NCBI GenBank assembly: GCA_004114245.1
Contig: QZWS01000120.1
Span: forward strand, 1 to 24,745
From: Zoopage sp. CT-All
Taxonomy: Eukaryota > Zoopagomycota > Zoopagomycetes > Zoopagales > Zoopagaceae
Direction: 5' to 3'
Length of the DNA stretch: 24,745 nt
The position numbers and the translations under genes are program-made. Of this stretch, positions 11,808 to 21,470 are shown in pieces (within the stretch, counting starts at the first letter, position 1; the number at the start of each line of letters is the position of its first letter). The notes below the pieces were generated by a model, which saw nothing but the letters and a program-made list of their open reading frames with translations, was not told the DNA's origin and ran no database searches.

Positions 11808-12251
11808 CTAGATATACCATCCACGATGCAATACAGCAGACGGCTCAACGGGAACAACCGCGTCAATTGCAATTGACGGCCTAGCGCCCGCCCCGCCGCC
11901 GCCCCCCCCATTTGCCGCATACCCCTGAAACCTGCCAGGCGGGTATGGTACCACTGTGTTCATCTGTGGCACATACGATGACCGATACTTATCTTTCCTG
12001 GCTGACATACTCGAGTACCCGCTGCTGCCGCCGGCTTCTAGGCCCTTGTAAAAGGTGTCTTTATCTCGGTGGGCTTCTTCGTAGAGGTACACGATGAGAA
12101 TGGCGTGGATGATACCCGGAATGAGGAAGAAGAGGGTCAGGAGGATGGAGAGGAGCAGGTCCTGGGAGAGACCGCGTTTTATAAAGACGGGTACGGGCGG
12201 GCAGAGGACTGCGAGGGCCAGCATCATGACGTATCGAGGTGACGGCGCCAT
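11808..12251 (-). CDS. Pmp3-family proteolipid with Gly-rich tail (copy A)
   Basis: The protein is 147 residues from ATG 12249-12251. The Pmp3/UPF0057 core, two closely spaced membrane helices, spans residues 8-57. It carries the family landmarks 'CPPVPVF' in helix 1 and 'LLLSILLTLFFLIPGIIHA' in helix 2. Pmp3 proteins are small plasma-membrane proteolipids that affect membrane potential and salt tolerance in yeast and plants. The typical protein is about 55 residues, so the extra 90 here form a hydrophilic tail. The tail has the 'GLEAGG' motif at about 70-75 that most of the window's other copies share, then Ser/Tyr- and Gly-rich low complexity. The Cys of the usual 'GCG' in the inter-helix loop is missing ('RGLSQD'). 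The gene is divergent from copy B. Confidence 0.9.
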   Translation of the reverse strand: MAPSPRYVMMLALAVLCPPVPVFIKRGLSQDLLLSILLTLFFLIPGIIHAILIVYLYEEAHRDKDTFYKGLEAGGSSGYSSMSARKDKYRSSYVPQMNTVVPYPPGRFQGYAANGGGGGGAGARPSIAIDAVVPVEPSAVLHRGWYI

Positions 12252-12805
12252 GACAGAGATGCTGCGGTGCTGGTGAGATGAATGGGCGAATGCTTATAAA
12301 ACGATGAGGATTCAGCGGCGCTGGTTTGGCGATTCTAAGCAAATACGGATGTTGGATCGATCCTGCGACCAGAATTTTCCCGGCTGAGTTGCGCACAGGT
12401 GAGAATCAAATAGAGACGATGCTCACGAGCGGATTGAGCGTGGGTGTGTGTTGGGCGGCGATACCAGCGCGCGCTCGCAACCAACAATGTCTTGGAAGCT
12501 TGGTAGGTGTGCCGCACGGTCTGGCGGATGGTGATGAGGAGAGGGGCGGTTGTGCTGCGCGTGTACCCGACGGTCTTCGGAATGTAGGGGACGGTCGGCG
12601 GTGGCGCGGCGGACAAGCACGCGGATGGAGATGGACGTTGAGGTTGAGGCAAAATGGTGGCCGTGCCGTGATGGCACCTGCCAGACATCACCACCACCAT
12701 CCTCCGCCACTACTGGCTGTATATCCTCCAAAACTTCCCCAAAATCGCGAGAAATACGTCACGAACGCGCTCTGACTGAAGCCCTTGCGCTTGTAGTCCA
12801 AACCA
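12252..12805. promoter_or_regulatory. Divergent promoter region between Pmp3-family copies A and B
   Basis: The region is 554 bp between two divergent starts, with no convincing gene. A TATAAA string at 12295-12300 reads as TTTATA followed by AG on the minus strand. It lies about 44 bp upstream of the copy A ATG, a reasonable spacing for a minus-strand TATA-like element. Open frames across 12326-12775 appear on both strands, as expected in G+C-rich DNA, and show no domain. Confidence 0.35.
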
Positions 12806-13987
12806 ATGTACTCCACCGACCACCGACAGCCGCGAACGGCTGCATCCACTCCCAGAACACCCCCGTCACGGCAGCCATTCGCCGATAGGAGTAATGCGTA
12901 TACGCAGCCCTACGTTGCGTCATCTCTTGCATCGCTCATGCCGGTCCATGTGCGCGATATCGGATCATCGCCTGTGTTTGGCCAGCCGCCGCGAGCACCG
13001 TCGGGACCAATACGGATACAGAACGCTACACTGCCATCCCCCCTCACACTTCCCAGCAGCCAACCACAAAATCAAGGCAGCCGACGATATGCTTTGGAGA
13101 AGCCGACGAGGGCACAGCCGAGAAGACCACACGGACTGCTACTCGCCCTACTTGCCATCCTTCTCCCCCCACTATCAGTCTATCTCGCCAACCAACGGAA
13201 AATAACGGCAGACTTTTACGTAAATATCTGCTTGACAGCATGCTTTTGGGCCCCTGGAGTACTGCATGCTTGGCTTATGCAGGCATTTTATGTGCCTAAG
13301 GTTGAAGAATATGATATCAGACATGGTGATGGCCAAGGAGTATACGCTGGCTACACCGGCAGTATGGTGAACGGCAGAGTCGAGCGCCTGCCGTTCGAAG
13401 CTCCGGATATGCCCATCGCGGTGTCGAATCTTGTCGGAATAGTGGTGGGCCACCCTCTCCATGATGCCAACAACCGGCACAGCGAGGCCGGGCTTTCCTC
13501 GATATTATACGGTGTGGAATTCGAACAAGGCTTTGGTGGTCCTAGTCCGACTTACTCGGCAGTGCCACCACTTGGTCCTGGTCTGCAGCCACGCGCCAGG
13601 GACTACACTCGCGACAGCACGGCGAGCTTCCAAAATTCGTACGCCATGGCATCATCCCTCGGCGTTGATACCCTGGCACCCGGCCTTGCATCCTCTCCCA
13701 CCAAAGGCCGATCCTCGTTCCTCAGTGTGCTGCCATCACCATCAAAACCCTGGCATGGCGGTGCGCCGCCGGATAGCGCCCTGGGAACCTCGTTTGACAC
13801 GACCCAGCTCCCGTTCGCCACTCTCCCTGGGACGTCGCCTGGAGCCAGGCCCTTGGTAATTGATGTGTCGCGTATTCCGCCCGCACCGAGACTTCCCCCG
13901 CCTGTACTAAGCAAGCTTGGTGAATGGCCAAGGAGCGGCACGTATGCAGAGGCAGTATCACACCCCAGCGGGGATGGCATGGTATGA
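12806..13987 (+). CDS. Pmp3-family protein with long N- and C-terminal extensions (copy B)
   Basis: This is a single-exon frame of 393 residues from ATG 12806. The two-helix Pmp3 core sits in the middle (about 108-162): 'LLALLAILLPPLSVYLA', a loop, then 'FYVNICLTACFWAPGVLHAWLM'. The N-terminal 107 residues and C-terminal 230 are low-complexity, rich in Ser, Pro, Arg and Gly. They show no recognised domain. It is the most divergent of the six: the loop is 'NQRKITAD' rather than 'GCG.D', and the 'LE.G' tail motif is absent or unrecognisable. An N-terminal extension this long is unusual for the family. Start and frame are supported by the continuous open frame. The stop codon begins a tandem 8-bp repeat. 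Confidence 0.8.
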   Translation: MYSTDHRQPRTAASTPRTPPSRQPFADRSNAYTQPYVASSLASLMPVHVRDIGSSPVFGQPPRAPSGPIRIQNATLPSPLTLPSSQPQNQGSRRYALEKPTRAQPRRPHGLLLALLAILLPPLSVYLANQRKITADFYVNICLTACFWAPGVLHAWLMQAFYVPKVEEYDIRHGDGQGVYAGYTGSMVNGRVERLPFEAPDMPIAVSNLVGIVVGHPLHDANNRHSEAGLSSILYGVEFEQGFGGPSPTYSAVPPLGPGLQPRARDYTRDSTASFQNSYAMASSLGVDTLAPGLASSPTKGRSSFLSVLPSPSKPWHGGAPPDSALGTSFDTTQLPFATLPGTSPGARPLVIDVSRIPPAPRLPPPVLSKLGEWPRSGTYAEAVSHPSGDGMV

Positions 13988-14016
13988 GCGGATGAGCGGG
14001 TGAGCGAGTGAGCGGC
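13985..14016 (+). repeat. Four 8-bp repeats starting at a stop codon
   Basis: Four tandem copies of TGAGCGNN (13985-13992, 13993-14000, 14001-14008, 14009-14016) begin with the TGA stop of Pmp3-family copy B. The unit length is not a multiple of three, so successive TGAs fall in all three frames. The rest of the array is in the 3' untranslated region. Confidence 0.7.
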
Positions 14017-14018
14017 GA

Positions 14019-14024
14019 AATAAA
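14019..14024 (+). terminator. Canonical AATAAA poly(A) signal of copy B
   Basis: AATAAA lies 32 nt past the stop of Pmp3-family copy B, directly after its 8-bp repeat array. Placement downstream of a plus-strand gene fits a polyadenylation signal. Fungal signals are loose, so this is suggestive only. Confidence 0.4.
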
Positions 14025-14148
14025 TCCTGCTGCGCAAGGTTGTGCAGCCCACATGCAATCCGCCTCTGCTCCCCTCACCATCGCACACTTCGCGTCCGCC
14101 GCACTCTAGCCTTAGCACCTCGCACTTCACATCTCTTGCACCACAACT

Positions 14149-15768
14149 ATGCGCACCATCTCTATCGCCGCTCGTATGGTCGTCGTCCTCGTCGTCCTCG
14201 CCGCCCTCCTTGCTACCTTCATGGCCGCCTACATTGCCACCGGCACCAGGCCGGCCTCTCCCGCTACCATCTCCAAGGCCCCCACCTACCTCGGCCGCGC
14301 CCTCTCAAGGTAGTAGCTCCCTGATGTGTGTAGTTGTGCGTAATGCTGACCTCGTTGGTTGCCTTGTCTAGTCTGACGGGCTTGTTGCCGGACGCTGTTC
14401 TTGGTGGGACTGCCCAAGCCGACCGCTCCGTAGGACCGCCCAAGACACTCTCCGCTGCTTCTATCGTTGCCTCCATCGCTGCTTATATCCCGGCAGCCAT
14501 GTCGGAGATGATTGGCATGTCGTCCGAGCTGTCACATGCCAAAGGCGCCGACGCAACGTCTCTGGTTGATGCTGGCCGCGACTCGCTCTCCTCCGCCATC
14601 TCGTGGCTCTCAAGGTACGTTTGCTTGCCCATGTACTGCACGAATGTGTTGGCTGATGCTGTGGGTTGTGCTTGCTCTGTAGTGTGGCCGATGTCGACGT
14701 CCCTATGTCAATGACATCATGGCTCGGTCCGCTTTCCTCCATGCTCGCTTCGATCCATCTCTCGCCCGGCCAACAGTCTCTGCCCGAGAGCGACCAAGGA
14801 ATCGTGCATACTGCCATCGCGTCGTCTCTGCACTGGCTGGATACTGTCCTCGACGCTGCGCATCAACCAACTCGGACCATGTGGACCGACTCACTCGGCG
14901 AATCCGCCAGACTCGATTTCCACGACAATATGGTATTTCAATCCCTTCTTCTCGTATGCCTCTTGCTCACTGTATTGGCTGTTAGGGCCTGGTGGAAGCG
15001 CTTGTCCACGCCACCACCAAAATGGCCGATATGCCGTTGGCCGCGATTCGGCTCATCGCCCAGAAAACCCTCGCCCGTGCGACCACCTTTTGTGCCAGCG
15101 CTGCATCCAGTGTGGCGCATTATGCAAATATCTTCTGGAGCGCACTAATGTTTATTGTGTTTATGCTACTCGCTCGTACAATGGTCTGCTGCCAATCCCC
15201 GCCGCTTACCGCCACCAACATTGCTTTGTAGATGTCCTCTCGGCTCCTAACCTTACAGAAGTGGTTGCAAGTTGCACCCGAGTGCTTTGCCGCGCAAGAC
15301 AATTCAATGCCGCTTGTGAAAGAGGAGGTCGATCAGGCACCCGCTGTTCGCAACAGTAAATTAATTTCGCCAATATCGGGGCTAGCTCATATCGCCGTAG
15401 AAGCCATTGCGCAGGAAGATCCCTCGCTTGTACCTCCTATCAGCTTGATGAGCGTTTTGCTATCTAAAGAGGAGAATGTTACTCCAGGCCGTCCAAACCG
15501 TCCAGCCCTTGAAAGATGTAAGATTCACCACCATGGTAAAGATACTACTGCTAAACTATTGTCATTAGTGTTAAACATTGAGCCGCTAGTTCCAAGACGG
15601 CGCACAGGTTTAAGAGTAACTTTTGCCGAAGAGGGGCCGGAAGAATCGTTACTGGCAAGGATCCGACGAGCCAACTCTCAGCCCTCATATCGTGCCCGCA
15701 AGAACGCAAGCAGGCCAACTGTCGACCCAGCAGCCATTAGTAAGCTTCTAAGTCGCCGCGAAGATTGA
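14149..15768 (+). CDS. Orphan multi-exon protein with terminal membrane segments
   Basis: Proposed exons are 14149-14309, 14372-14614, 14683-14932, 14986-15156 and 15232-15768, giving 453 residues. The first three introns (62, 68 and 53 bp) have good GT/AG sites and keep the frame open. An N-terminal signal-anchor-like segment is rich in V, L and A (about residues 9-30). Exons 2-4 are Ala/Ser-rich and amphipathic. No known family is recognised. The last junction is uncertain. Without splicing, exon 4 reads through a membrane helix ('FWSALMFIVFMLLA') to a TAG at 15229-15231, giving 299 residues, and the next base starts an ATG opening the 178-residue final frame. The sequence before that ATG (TTGCTTTGTAG) looks like a splice acceptor. 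A phase-compatible donor is GTGTTT at 15157. A better-looking donor (GTACAA, 15174) would end the protein early at 15359. Confidence 0.5.
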
Positions 15769-15919
15769 GGGTGATGAAGTTATGTAATACAAGTTGTACT
15801 CAAAGTAGCCGGCGGCAAAGCGATGGCGGCAAAACGACTGCGACTGCAATACGCTTGCCTCTGTTCTCAGCCAGCATCGCCGCCGCCGTATCACCACCGC
15901 ACGCCGCACACCGCACGCC

Positions 15920-16210
15920 ATGGCTCTGTCCAACCGAGACTTCTTTCTGCTGCTTGTCGCTGTCTTCCTCCCGCCAGTTCCTGTTGCAGTTAAGCGCGGC
16001 TGCGGCGCCGACTTCCTAATCAACATTCTCCTCACCCTGCTTGGCGCGCTCCCGGGCATCCTGCACGCATGGTACGTGATCTTTGAGTACAACGACGTGG
16101 ATGGATACAGGGAGCTGGAGGATGGCAGCGGCGGGTACGTGCATGCGCGCGAGGGCGAGCAGCGAGCATCGATTCCCCGACCCGTGGTGCATCCCAACGC
16201 GCAGCATTAG
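15920..16210 (+). CDS. PMP3: Pmp3-family proteolipid, most canonical copy (C)
   Basis: The protein is 96 residues from ATG 15920. It matches the classic Pmp3 layout best: 'FLLLVAVFLPPVPVAV', then 'KRGCGADFLINILLTLLGALPGILHAWYVIF', with the usual GCG loop and PG..H in helix 2. It should be an intrinsic membrane proteolipid, probably of the plasma membrane, where yeast Pmp3 limits hyperpolarisation and cation entry. The tail after helix 2 (about 40 residues) contains 'ELEDGSGGY' at 65-73, the clearest form of the motif shared by most copies here. No intron is visible. It lies convergent to copy D, with 114 bp between stops. Confidence 0.92.
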   Translation: MALSNRDFFLLLVAVFLPPVPVAVKRGCGADFLINILLTLLGALPGILHAWYVIFEYNDVDGYRELEDGSGGYVHAREGEQRASIPRPVVHPNAQH

Positions 16211-16324
16211 CAGCCCTAGCAGCAACGTATGCGGAGATGGAACGAGTGTTTTTCAGTATGAAGAGTGATTGTTGCCAAACATATCAGAGTTTTATTGGCT
16301 CGAGAGGGCCCACGCCTGTCTCGG

Positions 16325-16852
16325 TCATACTGGCCACATTTGCAGCGCCGGCTGCGGTGCCTTTATCTTGAACGCCGCCACGGCACCATTCAGCGACACC
16401 CCAGCGCCCCACGCCACGCTCGGGGTATACCCTGGCCCGTGGTAGTACCCCTCGTAGCGCTCGTACGCTCGGGCAGCCATGGCCGGCTCATTGCCCGTGA
16501 TCCCCGATCTCCTCCGCCCGTTCAGCTCCGTCTCTCGCATTCCACCGTTCCCATCTTCGATCGCACTCCATGCGTCGTGCGTGCCACTTCTTCGCCGGGC
16601 GCCAAGCAACGGGCTCAAGCCCTCCCACCGCGCATTCACGCGGAACCCGCCGCCCCCACGGGTGCGGTATATCACCAGCCAGGCGTGGAGGATGCCTGGC
16701 ACGAGGAGCAGGAGCGTGAAGAGGGCGTTGAGGAGGGTTGCGCGTGTGAAGAGCCCAAAGCGGATAGTCACGGCCAACGGCGGCAGGGGGATGGCGAGGA
16801 TGAGCAGGAGGATGTCGGGGCAGAAAAGACGGCGCTGTTTTTGCACAGGCAT
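16325..16852 (-). CDS. Pmp3-family protein (copy D)
   Basis: The protein is 175 residues using ATG 16850-16852. The core at residues 12-62 has 'DILLLILAIPLPPLAVTI', then a loop lacking GCG ('RFGLFTRAT'), then 'LLNALFTLLLLVPGILHAWLVIY'. The start was chosen because the core begins ten residues after it, as in normal Pmp3. An in-frame extension to 17134 would add 94 Pro/Ser/Thr-rich residues. That extension cannot be excluded, since copy B does carry such an N terminus. The tail is Gly- and Arg-rich and contains 'AIEDGNGGM' (about 97-105), closely like 'ELEDGSGGY' of copy C, its convergent neighbour. Pairing and motif suggest that C and D arose by duplication. Confidence 0.85.
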   Translation of the reverse strand: MPVQKQRRLFCPDILLLILAIPLPPLAVTIRFGLFTRATLLNALFTLLLLVPGILHAWLVIYRTRGGGGFRVNARWEGLSPLLGARRRSGTHDAWSAIEDGNGGMRETELNGRRRSGITGNEPAMAARAYERYEGYYHGPGYTPSVAWGAGVSLNGAVAAFKIKAPQPALQMWPV

Positions 16853-17249
16853 TGTGGTGGTGGAGATGCCGCGGGGGGCGATCGCTTCGGCGGCGGTTAA
16901 TACTGGGTTGGCGGAGGATGTACGTGAAGGTGATAGGCGGCGTTCCTGTCTGGCTGGCGCACCGATCCAATCACTAGTGGTTCCCGGCGAGCTGAGCAAG
17001 AGTTTTTCTGTTGGCGCAGATGTTACAGGTTGTTTCGGGGGAGAGGGAGGGTTGGGGCGGTAGCGGGCTGTTGCCGCAGGGCTGGTTTGCGATGGACAGC
17101 GATGTGGATGGCCCGTTGTCCGCTGCCATGCCACCTTGACCGCCCAGCCTGCCCTCCCCGGCCGCCTGTGCTGCCACCCCAGTTACCGAAACTGTTTTGG
17201 AATCGCCAGCCTCGCATGTGCGTCCCACCACGTGGTATCATGAGCGGGC

Positions 17250-17277
17250 GCTGGGGAGCGAGTGCTGGGGAGCGAAT
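17250..17277. repeat. 14-bp tandem duplication
   Basis: GCTGGGGAGCGAGT (17250-17263) is followed at once by GCTGGGGAGCGAAT (17264-17277), with one difference. It is non-coding and lies about 430 bp upstream of the first secreted-protein gene. Confidence 0.6.
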
Positions 17278-17357
17278 CCCAGCGATAGGAACGGAGAATA
17301 GCTACGTGAACGGACTGGCGTGGCCAGCACCAGGACGATGGCGCAGGGAGCCCTACG

Positions 17358-17385
17358 GGTGTGGCAGAGATGGTGTGGCAGAGAT
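17358..17385. repeat. Second 14-bp tandem duplication
   Basis: GGTGTGGCAGAGAT occurs twice in perfect tandem (17358-17371 and 17372-17385), followed by a decayed partial copy (GGTGCGGCA). The unit length equals that of the duplication at 17250-17277, but the sequence is unrelated. Confidence 0.6.
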
Positions 17386-17650
17386 GGTGCGGCAAAAGGA
17401 GGCGGAATCGACTTTCACGAGGGTGGCTGACCAGTGCGGTGGGGGCCTTATGCATCCGGGGACTAGTATTGCTTGCGTGTCTGTGTTTGTGTCTGCGTCT
17501 GTGTATCGTCAATATCAAGTCTACTCGGCACTTGACAAGTCTGCCGCATTGCCTAATGACGTGGCATTGATTCCCATACGGCAGTTTGACTGTCCAGCGC
17601 AAACCGTGCCAGCTTTGCCCTTACTTCCCCATCTAGATGCCCAACGCATC

Positions 17651-17704
17651 GCACCACACGTCCACTCTGTGCTGCACCTCTGCAATAACAAATCACAAGA
17701 AACC
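17651..17704 (+). promoter_or_regulatory. Conserved 5' leader, secreted gene 1
   Basis: These 54 bp immediately before the ATG match 18453-18506 at 47 of 54 positions without gaps. The sequence is A/C-rich with few G, and no ATG occurs before the start codon, as expected of a 5' untranslated leader. Conservation with the paralogue reflects shared duplication and possibly shared regulation. Confidence 0.55.
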
Positions 17705-18211
17705 ATGCTCTTCCGCTGCCCATCTATTGCTCTCATCGCCTTTGCTGCCATCTACATCTCGGTCACGATCAATGCCAGTGGCAGCGACACTAGTTTCGAT
17801 GATGTGTGGAAATTGCTCAGATATGAGCAGTATGCCAATCTGATGAGTGAATGGAAGGCTGAGAAAAAAAGGCGTCCTACTGATGCTGAAATCAGGCAGA
17901 TGGAGAATAAAGCGCAGCAGTATGCTGAGCAGCATTATCGTACAGTCAGCCAGAAAGAGTATGCTCATCGAAAGGCAGTATTCGACAAAAAAGAGCAACG
18001 CTATATGGACAAGCATGATGCTGCATTAGAGGATGCATCCAAGAAACTAAAAGATCTTGATATTCCATTGCATTTCAAGGATCGTATTGCATTCAGAGAA
18101 GCTCTACTTGCAGTCAATCCAAACGTGTCTGTACAAGACGAAAAGAAGCTGAGGGAGGATATTAATAGGATGAAACCAGTGCGATCTAAAGCGAAACATA
18201 GAAGAGTGTAG
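17705..18211 (+). CDS. Small secreted protein, tandem paralogue 1
   Basis: The protein is 168 residues from ATG 17705. A clear signal peptide (about residues 1-24, 'IALIAFAAIYISVTINA', cleavage likely near 'NAS') is followed by a highly charged, probably helical mature protein. The mature part has no cysteine and a basic C terminus ('SKAKHRRV'). The block at about 48-90 ('SEW...KKR.PTDAEI..M.N.A.Q...YRTV.Q.EY.HRK') is the part best kept in paralogue 2. No known family is recognised. Secreted, duplicated, lineage-specific small proteins are typical of fungal effector-like sets, but nothing here shows a host role. The open frame continues upstream to 17030, but using it would bury the signal peptide. 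The coding sequence is visibly A+T-richer than its neighbours. Confidence 0.8.
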   Translation: MLFRCPSIALIAFAAIYISVTINASGSDTSFDDVWKLLRYEQYANLMSEWKAEKKRRPTDAEIRQMENKAQQYAEQHYRTVSQKEYAHRKAVFDKKEQRYMDKHDAALEDASKKLKDLDIPLHFKDRIAFREALLAVNPNVSVQDEKKLREDINRMKPVRSKAKHRRV

Positions 18212-18506
18212 GCTGTTGAGAAGGCGGAAATGGCTGTTGGACTGGTGTCAAATGCTTTTTGTTCACTGTTCTGTTTACGTGCTCTTATGTGCTGCGTTTT
18301 AAATGAATTAATTATGGCATACTTGAAATGGTTAGACTATTGAGTGGAGGCGGTGAGGGGGGGGGAAGCATGCCCAGCAAGAGATCTGCCAAAGGCAGCG
18401 GGGGGAAGACTTGACTGTCCTTTTACTCCTCCCCAGCCCAACACACCGCACTACACCACACGTCCACTCCACGCTACACCTCTGCAATAGCAAATCACAA
18501 AAAACC
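18212..18506. other. Spacer between the two secreted-protein genes
   Basis: The spacer is 295 bp. It holds the 3' end of gene 1 and the promoter and leader of gene 2. An A/T-rich patch (about 18296-18316) and a run of ten G (18357-18366) are visible, but no gene is. Confidence 0.4.
18453..18506 (+). promoter_or_regulatory. Conserved 5' leader, secreted gene 2
   Basis: This is the counterpart of 17651-17704: 47 of 54 positions are identical with no gaps, and it directly abuts the ATG of the second gene. The shared block (CACCACACGTCCACT, then TGCAATA.CAAATCACAA) shows that the duplication included the transcript leader. Confidence 0.55.
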
Positions 18507-19064
18507 ATGCTCTCCCGCTGCTCATCTATCGCCCTCATTGCCGTTGCTGCCATCTGCATCTCGGTCTCGATCAATGCCAGCAGCAACCCTCCCAAGGACG
18601 TCAGTTTTGATCATGTGCGGAACGTTCTCACAGCCCATCGGTATGATGATCTGATAAGCGAATGGATGGTCAAGAAAAAAAGGAATCCTACTGATGCGGA
18701 AATCATAAAGATGTATAACCGAGCAAAGCAGCATGCCAAGCAGAACTATCGTACAGTCGGCCAGAGAGAGTATGGGCACCGAAAGGAAGCATATAAAGAA
18801 AAAACACGACAGCAGGAAGTCAACCATAATGTCGCATACGATGTTGAATTCAAGAAGCTGCAAAAATATGATTTTCCATTGGATACCATGGATCGTTTTG
18901 CAGATAAAGAGGCCGAACTCATGAGCAATCCAAAGGTGTCTGCAAAAAATGCAGACAAATGGAAGAAGGATATTAATATGGCAAAGGCAGGGCGACGCAT
19001 CAACAAACGTCATAGAAGGATGCGGGCTGAGGAGGAGAGACCAAGCGTGGGTTATTTTGCCTAA
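18507..19064 (+). CDS. Small secreted protein, tandem paralogue 2
   Basis: The protein is 185 residues from ATG 18507. Its signal peptide matches that of paralogue 1 at 20 of the first 25 positions. The mature parts agree at only about 44% by my hand alignment. The conserved block lies at about 51-93 ('SEW', 'PTDAEI', 'YRTV', 'EY.HRK'). The mature protein lacks cysteine, is rich in Lys, Arg, Glu and Asp, and is probably helical. Its basic C-terminal segment ('RRINKRHRRMR') is extended by about 14 residues relative to paralogue 1. The gene is single-exon, A+T-rich and on the same strand as its twin, so a tandem duplication. No function can be assigned from the sequence. Confidence 0.8.
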   Translation: MLSRCSSIALIAVAAICISVSINASSNPPKDVSFDHVRNVLTAHRYDDLISEWMVKKKRNPTDAEIIKMYNRAKQHAKQNYRTVGQREYGHRKEAYKEKTRQQEVNHNVAYDVEFKKLQKYDFPLDTMDRFADKEAELMSNPKVSAKNADKWKKDINMAKAGRRINKRHRRMRAEEERPSVGYFA

Positions 19065-19306
19065 GCAAATGTACTGCGCTTGGGCACTACAATTTGCTAG
19101 CATTCTGCCAAATCAGCCGATCCATTGCCATGCATAACCCAGTGGAAAGCACCTTATTGATGAACTGCATGTTGCTGGTTTAGACTATGCGCATGCTTAC
19201 AATCCAAACAGCTGAACGCCATCTACGTGCCGCATCTTAAATAGCCAGGCCATTATTGACGTAGCTGGACCATTAGGAGGCAGGCCTATGCAGCTTGACG
19301 CGCCCT

Positions 19307-20377
19307 ATGCCTCCAGTATCATCCGTCGTTGATGCCGTCGACGCCCTTCTCGGCCCAGACAATCGCCACATCACCCAATCACCCGCCGCGTCGGCCGGCC
19401 AAGATAGAACTGCCATGCCCCCGCAAACCACCGCCCCTTCCTTCGCCGCCAAGTACCGCCTGCCGCTGCTCTGCCTCGCCGTCGTCTGCCCGCCGCTGCC
19501 CATCGCCCTCATCCACGGCATCTGTTCCCAGGACTTTGCCGTCTCCATCATCCTCACGCTGTTTCTCTTCCTCCCCGGCGTGATCCACGCCGTCGCTGTT
19601 GTGCTGCATGTGGCTTCGGGGATGGCCGAGGGCGAGCGGGATCGGCGCCGCAGGACCAAGGGGCTGTCAAGCGGAGACCTCGAAGCTGGGTTCATGCGTG
19701 CCGGCGGCCACGGCGTGTCGACCGATGGTCGTAGCAGGGGGAGGCTGTCAAAGGATGGCTCGCGTCATGTGCTGTCGTCGACGCGAGCCTCTGGCGGCGG
19801 CGGCTCGTCGCGGCGGCCCTCGGCGACGTCGCTGGGAACGAAATCCCCCGGGTTGCTGTCGCCACTGCCCCGCGAACCCAAGTCTGTGCATGCCAGAAGC
19901 AGCAACAGGCATGATTCAGGCGCCGGCGTGTATATGGAGAAAGCAGGGCGCGCATCGCCGTCGGCGTCGGCTCCGGATTTGAGTCCCAGTGTAAAGTCGC
20001 GTTCCGCTGCGTCTCGGCGGCGAAGCAGCTCGGTATCCGCAATCACAGAAATACAAACACACACATCGCAATCCATGCCAATACTCTCTGCGGTGGGAAG
20101 CCCGCAGACACCGCTCCCATTGGTGCAGGCCTACCCCCAGCCGCCGAGGACCAGCACCACAGATGCCAGCATTGGTCGCGGCGATGGATTCCTCGACCCT
20201 ATCCTCGAATACGATAGCTTTACTGACGAAGATGTCACTGGCGAGGATGACTTGTACGGTGCAGCCAAGTCAATGGAAGGAAAGGGCAGGAACAGAGTCG
20301 ATTCAGCTGGTTTGAATCGCACCAGCTCCCACCCGCCGTCATCAGCCGCTACAAGGCCAAGAGCCACCACTCGATAG
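19307..20377 (+). CDS. Pmp3-family protein with long Ser-rich tail (copy E)
   Basis: The protein is 356 residues from ATG 19307 (the frame upstream opens only with TTG). The two-helix core spans about residues 51-102: 'LPLLCLAVVCPPLPIALI', loop 'HGICSQDFAV', then 'SIILTLFLFLPGVIHAVAVVL'. An N-terminal extension of about 50 residues precedes it; Met 37 is an alternative start. The tail of about 250 residues is Ser/Arg/Pro-rich. It has 'GDLEAG' (about 123-128), possible phosphorylation clusters ('SRRPSATS', 'SRRRSSSVS'), and a C-terminal acidic segment beginning 'LDPILE' (about 296-301). Copy F carries the same 'LDPI(L/M)E' plus acidic arrangement. The gene is convergent with F, with 127 bp between stops. 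Function beyond membrane insertion is unknown. Confidence 0.85.
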   Translation: MPPVSSVVDAVDALLGPDNRHITQSPAASAGQDRTAMPPQTTAPSFAAKYRLPLLCLAVVCPPLPIALIHGICSQDFAVSIILTLFLFLPGVIHAVAVVLHVASGMAEGERDRRRRTKGLSSGDLEAGFMRAGGHGVSTDGRSRGRLSKDGSRHVLSSTRASGGGGSSRRPSATSLGTKSPGLLSPLPREPKSVHARSSNRHDSGAGVYMEKAGRASPSASAPDLSPSVKSRSAASRRRSSSVSAITEIQTHTSQSMPILSAVGSPQTPLPLVQAYPQPPRTSTTDASIGRGDGFLDPILEYDSFTDEDVTGEDDLYGAAKSMEGKGRNRVDSAGLNRTSSHPPSSAATRPRATTR

Positions 20378-20504
20378 GGAGAATCATTTCAATTGGAAAC
20401 CGCAAATATGTATAAGAATGTTGTCCTGCCTGCGTGATACATTCTGTCCTCATCCCTCATCCCCCAGCCATCGTTGTCAACATATCTGCATTCACGTGTT
20501 GGCA

Positions 20505-21470
20505 TCACAGAGCAGGCGGCGGGACGGTCGGCATATCGCCTATCCACGAGTCGTTACCCCACCCAGCATCACCATCTCCAGGCAGCGTCTCATGACTGAC
20601 ATTCACTGATGGGCGTCTACCCATCGCAACACTCGCGATCGCATCTCTCCATCCACCACCGCCCACCGCCTCTGCATCGCCCTCCGTATCGCTCTCCGAC
20701 ATTAGCACATCCTCCATGATAGGATCCAGCCCCGCACTGCTCGCCCCTGGTCCTCCTGCACTCGGTGGCCGCGCACTAGTCCCTGGGCCACGTCTCGGCT
20801 TCAGCTGACTGAGCTTGGTGGCCCCAATTGCCTGTGTTTGCATGGATGGCAGCTGCGGGATGTTGGTAAGCCCGCGCAGGGTTGGTACCGCAGGCGCCGC
20901 AGACAACCGTCGAGCATCGCCCACGGTAATCGCAAACGGGCTCGAACTTGTGCTTGGGCGACGGCCACTCGGTCCATATCCTTGGAAGGAGAGTTTGCGG
21001 CCTCCGGGAAGCTCTATCCCCACGGCGGGCGGCAGGTATGCGCCTCCACCGCCAGCACTCGACGGTTTCCTCGTGGAGCCTCCCGTCTCCAAATCCTTTG
21101 CCATCTTGTCCTTGGACTTGCCACGGCGACTCGTTTTCGCTGTCCTGATATCCCCACGCGCAAACCGTCGAACGGTCAACAGCGAGTGAACCAAGCCTGG
21201 GAAAAACCCAAGGATGGTCAGCATCAAGGAAAGAACAAAGTCTTCGCCGCATCCGTGGATATAGAGGACCGGGACCGGGGGCAGAAGGAGTGCTAGACAT
21301 GAGAGCAGAATGAGCAAGCCGGTCGATGGAGTCGGCGCCTCGACCACTGTAGAGGCCTTATCGGAGTAAGTGCGGGAGTCAACTAGGGTTTCAGAGGATA
21401 TTTTCTCGAGACCGGCGGAGGAAGCCAATGCGTAGGCCTGTTGGTACGGCGGCACGTAGGTAGACTGCAT
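20505..21470 (-). CDS. Pmp3-family protein with long tail (copy F)
   Basis: The protein is 321 residues from ATG 21468-21470 (the frame upstream reaches only a TTG). The core at about 51-102 has 'LLILLSCLALLLPPVPVLYI', the canonical 'HGCGEDF' loop, then 'VLSLMLTILGFFPGLVHSLL'. An N-terminal extension of about 50 polar residues precedes it. The tail starts with a very basic stretch (about 101-125), then 'KDLETGG' (125-131), Gly/Ser-rich sequence with 'GRRPSTSSS', and the 'LDPIME' motif (248-253) followed by an acidic run. The overall plan matches copy E (N extension, core, LE.G, Arg-Arg-Pro-Ser, LDPI.E, acidic). E and F are therefore probably sister paralogues in convergent orientation. Confidence 0.88.
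   Translation of the reverse strand: MQSTYVPPYQQAYALASSAGLEKISSETLVDSRTYSDKASTVVEAPTPSTGLLILLSCLALLLPPVPVLYIHGCGEDFVLSLMLTILGFFPGLVHSLLTVRRFARGDIRTAKTSRRGKSKDKMAKDLETGGSTRKPSSAGGGGAYLPPAVGIELPGGRKLSFQGYGPSGRRPSTSSSPFAITVGDARRLSAAPAVPTLRGLTNIPQLPSMQTQAIGATKLSQLKPRRGPGTSARPPSAGGPGASSAGLDPIMEDVLMSESDTEGDAEAVGGGGWRDAIASVAMGRRPSVNVSHETLPGDGDAGWGNDSWIGDMPTVPPPAL

Follow-up and report, generated by a model that had tools for sequence, protein, structure and literature searches.

In the Pmp3 family (UPF0057), yeast Pmp3/Sna1 and plant RCI2 are short proteolipids. Yeast Sna2, Sna3 and Sna4 as well as the group II (PMP3-like) RCI2 proteins combine a core with a hydrophilic C-terminal tail, and some are also extended at the N-terminus; Sna2 is located via motifs in its tail and Sna3 is a ligase adaptor (reviewed in PMC7835403). 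The molecular roles proposed for Pmp3 comprise membrane potential, lipid binding, trafficking and channel partnership (PMC7835403, PMC10399984, PMC12136403), and in yeast the protein has been proposed as a phosphoinositide-regulated stress sensor (PMC10399984). Expansion within one genome is reported for C. elegans, where PMPL-1 and other PMP3-like proteins add up to 15 (PMC12136403), and local duplication for the Esi3/RCI2 genes of wheat, where two tandem pairs exist among ten genes and about 27 and 109 kilobases (kb) are quoted for one pair (PMC6288971). Tailed Pmp3 proteins and tandem Pmp3 pairs are already known (PMC7835403, PMC6288971). The present analysis concerns six Pmp3-family genes, copies A to F, within 9.7 kb (positions 11808-21470) of a contig from the fungus Zoopage sp. 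CT-All (contig QZWS01000120.1 of assembly GCA_004114245.1), analysed over its full 24,745 nucleotides (the window). Unusual here is that six of the seven copies of the genome lie in 9.7 kb and that most of them carry long, diverged tails. No description of a fungal Pmp3 gene cluster was found in the titles and abstract openings of the papers listed from the open-licence literature.

Membership of the family is clear for all six copies, which pass the Pfam model Pmp3 (PF01679, UPF0057) with 46.7-79 bits at a cut-off of 22.9. Each is a single open frame, and lengths are counted here from the first ATG. Copy A (11808-12251, minus strand, 147 amino acids, 57.3 bits) consists of the core (12087-12230) and a tail of 90 residues containing LEAGGSSGY. 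The 393 amino acids of copy B (12806-13987, plus strand) comprise an N-terminal extension of 109 residues, the core (13136-13276) and a 231-residue tail. Copy C (15920-16210, plus strand, core 15938-16084) is a canonical short Pmp3 of 96 amino acids whose tail, with LEDG, spans just 39 residues; it scores highest of the six (79 bits). Copy D (16325-16852, minus strand, core 16667-16816) has 175 amino acids and a tail of 111 residues with IEDG and two RRRS; its first ATG stands at 16852, and the frame is open upstream to a GTG at 17134. Copy E (19307-20377, plus strand, core 19466-19603; 46.7 bits in the frame from 19295) encodes 356 amino acids with an N-terminus of about 50 residues, a length obtained by subtraction, and a basic, Ser/Arg-rich tail of 254 residues. 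Copy F (20505-21470, minus strand, core 21177-21311; 48.3 bits in the frame from 21497) has 321 amino acids, 52 of them before the core and 218 in the tail. Codon use ranks the Pmp3 frame first among the six frames in all six copies, by small margins (0.03-0.14) and with a training set of just five stretches of the window. B and D, whose failure to match the family profile was to count against the preliminary description, do match it, with 52.4 and 47.2 bits (D scored on a frame of 269 amino acids).

The order of the genes, A/B divergent and C/D and E/F convergent, also stands, as the core strands read -, +, +, -, + and -. A family search of the whole genome (8,620,231 bases, 419 contigs) gave seven matches at E<=0.001 and the identical seven at E<=10; six fall in the cluster and the seventh on another contig, C287. 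This search ran exon by exon on a fragmented assembly, which means that a core split by an intron or an unassembled copy could be missed. The chance that six of seven randomly placed genes land within 9.69 kb is about 7.5e-14. That Pmp3 genes are usually dispersed is broadly true with exceptions such as wheat, whose genes are dispersed apart from the two tandem pairs (PMC6288971). The C287 copy is a weak and highly divergent match (28.3 bits; open frame 1132-1962) with a longer loop between the halves of the core, and it adjoins frames that look GTPase-like and FHA-like by eye.

Within the cores, PP in the first hydrophobic half and PG..H in the second are invariant in all six copies (P72, P73, P99, G100 and H103), while the histidine is a tyrosine in the C287 copy. 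Otherwise the cores share 31-47% identity. Copy C resembles Pmp3/Sna1 and RCI2 in its length, its Pfam score and the segment CGADFLINILLTLLG, which it has in common with its fungal Pmp3 matches; its core is 75% identical to that of the database protein P0001, and P0001-P0003 are 66-75% identical to C over 59-98% of its length. The 13 matches of C that bear an organism name are presumably all fungal; like the short introns and the genome size of 8.6 megabases, they point to a fungal source. Two further database proteins, P0004 and P0005 (126-127 amino acids), carry two Pmp3 cores per chain. In comparison with the short proteolipids, C has its 39-residue tail and the other five copies have tails of 90-254 residues.

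A plain two-helix core had been proposed; the residues named for it are those found invariant, whereas the AlphaFold2 model of F predicts four short helices for this part. The predicted helices match PscF (Ric1) of the Chlorobaculum tepidum reaction centre (7ueb_F), whose sequence profile also matches the Pmp3 cores (E 1e-7). PscF differs in being a tail-less protein of 58 amino acids and part of a photosynthetic complex. A monotopic fold is favoured for PMP3-like proteins in PMC12136403, and the match between the predicted F and PscF would support a one-face fold for this eukaryotic branch of the family too; the cores of A, B, D and E would have the same arrangement. In that model 172 of 321 residues lie below a predicted local distance difference test (pLDDT) score of 50, and the long tails on the anchored core are probably disordered, F being the one tailed copy that was modelled.

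The tails of A, B, D, E and F are hydrophilic (17-28% ILVFWYM). The preliminary description took them as low-complexity sequence, which is right for their biased composition, but several share ordered motifs. Five cluster copies, A, C, D, E and F, have [LI]ExG 8-33 residues from the start of the tail (IEDG in D, LEAG in E, LETG in F). With the C287 copy included, it occurs in five of seven tails against 0.23 expected, as many being reached in none of 20,000 shuffles, and it is absent from the ten control frames of the window. Of the basic motif R[RK]x[ST] the six tails hold 11 instances (two in D, four in E and five in F) where 1.67 are expected; none of 2000 shuffles had as many, and the control frames hold five against 4.19 expected. 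An acidic block, LDPI[LM]E, is common to E (LDPILE) and F (LDPIME). When the tails were aligned locally in all 21 pairs and compared with 500 shuffles each, A-F was equalled by 0, E-F by 1, C-D by 4 and A-C by 9 shuffles. With F as the genome query, the alignment to E and to A covers the core and the proximal tail, about 130 residues, and that to C covers the core.

Six Pmp3 genes grouped in this way, mostly with long tails, suggest a locally expanded family of adaptors anchored in the membrane. The region would be a local expansion of the Pmp3 family in which C acts as the canonical proteolipid, while A, B, D, E and F are tailed paralogs comparable to Sna2, Sna3 and Sna4 that take part, under stress, in the sorting or organisation of proteins of the plasma membrane. 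This reading has in our judgement an even chance of being right. The core would consist of four short helices embedded in the membrane from one face, with PP and PG near the kinks, and both ends of the protein would lie on the same, presumably cytosolic, side. It would hold the protein in the membrane and may bind to lipids or to larger membrane proteins, while the diverged tails, most of them with [LI]ExG, would serve as separately regulated adaptors. RRxS is read by PKA-type kinases, and the basophilic kinase-type sites in the tails of D, E and F are putative phosphorylation sites. An adaptor role is proposed because yeast Sna2 is placed by tail motifs, Sna3 is a ligase adaptor and Pmp3 is a proposed stress sensor. 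The membrane scaffolds or stress-response variants of the preliminary description are likewise a proposal. Unlike Sna2, Sna3, Sna4 and the tailed RCI2 proteins, as these are described, the copies here are without PPxY, five of the six have LExG in common and their genes stand in a cluster. A scan of the seven copies for Y..[LIVMFQ] gave a single YxxQ (YVPQ in A) and not the two tail motifs of Sna2-type sorting.

A more elaborate version, which we regard as unlikely though worth stating, sees a set of monotopic anchors made by local duplication, where the canonical Pmp3 keeps the core function and every paralog presents a disordered tail of its own, kinase-regulated in some, so that a combinatorial set of membrane scaffolds results in one lineage; the secreted-type paralogs between D and E would belong to the same diversifying, environment-facing block. 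A genome in which one short canonical copy stands next to five tailed copies, some motifs being shared and others private, lends itself to telling the function of the core from that of the tail.

Several observations weigh against the adaptor reading. The motifs were picked after inspection, and the figures given for them overstate their strength. B and the C287 copy have no LExG, and the tails of A, B and C hold no R[RK]x[ST]. In 17 of the 21 tail pairs at least 51 of 500 shuffles were as good or better, the tail of B matches no other tail in this test, and the similarity of A-C and of C-D is weak, given that 21 pairs were tried. At E<=1 the F query (six candidates scored) missed B, D and the C287 copy. 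PPxY is absent from all seven copies of the genome, the nearest being VPPY, which F has in its N-terminus. The model of C is poor (pLDDT 61.3) with one long second helix, although C is the best member of the family, and Foldseek gave it no PDB match at E<=0.001; PscF was absent among the seven matches listed. Finally, no single clade holds all six cores in the core tree, where only A, E and F group (93/70, below the starred level).

This tree (33 cores, 51 columns) contains the seven copies of the genome and 26 cores from 24 other proteins; P0002, which is without the PP, was left out. It resolves little: A+E reach 89/48, likewise below the starred level, and D pairs with P0001 at 84/44. Long branches lead to B, D, E and F, a less long one to A and a short one to C. 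The sequences thus indicate either duplications of great age or fast evolution of the copies. A local expansion stays the natural reading of a clustering far beyond chance, even though no single resolved clade unites the cores. That E/F arose as a copy of the C/D pair is unsupported, as core identities are 43% for C-E, 35% for D-F, 47% for C-D and 41% for E-F. Neither the six-copy alignment (7991 candidates scored) nor the F core (63 candidates scored) gave a match at E<=0.001 when searched against proteins; both searches are limited by the need for shared 5-residue words, and absence of tailed relatives is not implied.

The six genes could also encode ordinary Pmp3 proteolipids with a shared role in ion homeostasis, whose tails drift as near-neutral decoration because the lineage evolves fast. 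All cores pass Pfam and the tails have diverged as strongly as such drift would have it, with the 17 pairs that fail to beat their shuffles; yet open frames are kept for up to 393 codons, both LExG and R[RK]x[ST] are more frequent than in shuffles and control frames, and tailed plant forms are reported to have rescued pmp3 yeast only once truncated (review PMC7835403). We consider this possible, if somewhat improbable.

Adaptors of the Sna3/Sna4 type, recruiting the ubiquitin ligase Rsp5 via PY motifs, would have the same architecture of a Pmp3 core with a long tail and, in part, an N-terminal extension. Sna4, like Sna3, uses PPxY. Four tailed relatives of 153-160 amino acids (P0016, P0018, P0021 and P0023) bear a tail PPxY by eye, as reported for Sna3. 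The lack of this motif in all seven copies speaks against Rsp5 recruitment at this locus, which appears decidedly unlikely.

Less probable still is that the copies are subunits which form a cation conductance with another protein and have diversified as their partners differ. The model for it is the Pmp3-family protein PMPL-1 of C. elegans, which is required by the toxin PEEL-1 and makes up a monovalent cation channel with it, in a genome with the 15 PMP3-like proteins mentioned above (PMC12136403). According to the same source, however, PEEL-1 is found in C. elegans only and yeast Pmp3 together with PEEL-1 is not toxic, and in the cluster no partner candidate was identified.

That distant paralogs were brought together by a chance rearrangement is hardly credible: low core identity, the poorly resolved tree and mixed orientations would fit it, but neither the random-placement probability nor the shared proximal tails of A, E and F do.

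The search for DNA repeats of at least 24 nucleotides between Pmp3 copies gave a single inverted pair (24 nucleotides, 79%; one arm within B, the other beside or at the end of F), its two long repeats belonging to the secreted-type paralogs described below, and an Rfam scan of the window gave no match at the gathering score. Stress-element words (AGGGG, CCCCT and heat-shock-like) are spread over the whole window and, judged by eye, are no denser around the copies.

Three other genes had been counted between the pairs; the number is three or four. In the B-C interval, splice sites and an open spliced frame support a spliced membrane-protein gene at 14149-15231 (plus strand) with putative introns at 14310-14371, 14615-14682 and 14933-14985 and a hydrophobic N-terminal segment; a Pfam scan covering its frame 14334-14711 gave no match. 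The open frame that follows (15232-15768, plus strand), with a putative in-frame intron of 51 nucleotides (15518-15568) and no Pfam match, may be a separate gene or the continuation of this one.

The genes of the window with Pfam matches that flank the cluster are housekeeping genes, namely NCA2, Mpp10, an RPEL protein, RRN3, a bromodomain acetyltransferase (GNAT), which we take to be GCN5-like, and topoisomerase I; the cluster lies in the interval that the last two enclose.

Between D and E lie two small proteins on the plus strand, of 168 (17705-18211) and 185 amino acids (18507-19064), which are tandem paralogs with 50% identity. Both have a hydrophobic N-terminus and appear to be of secreted type, signal peptides in this family being judged by eye. 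The latter has no Pfam match; the former was scanned inside a longer frame. Their genes stand in tandem and share DNA repeats (74% and 86% identity) that extend upstream of the starts. The family counts eight matches in the genome, including the query 17705-18211 itself and its neighbour, and its protein was read at L009, L010 and L012-L014, which makes five of eight paralog loci; L008 and L011 gave none at the cut applied, and L015 was read in a wrong frame. In the two genes and at L010-L015 the hydrophobic N-terminus is nearly constant, with MLFRCxSI in all six members for which the start was read, and each match keeps to a single open frame.
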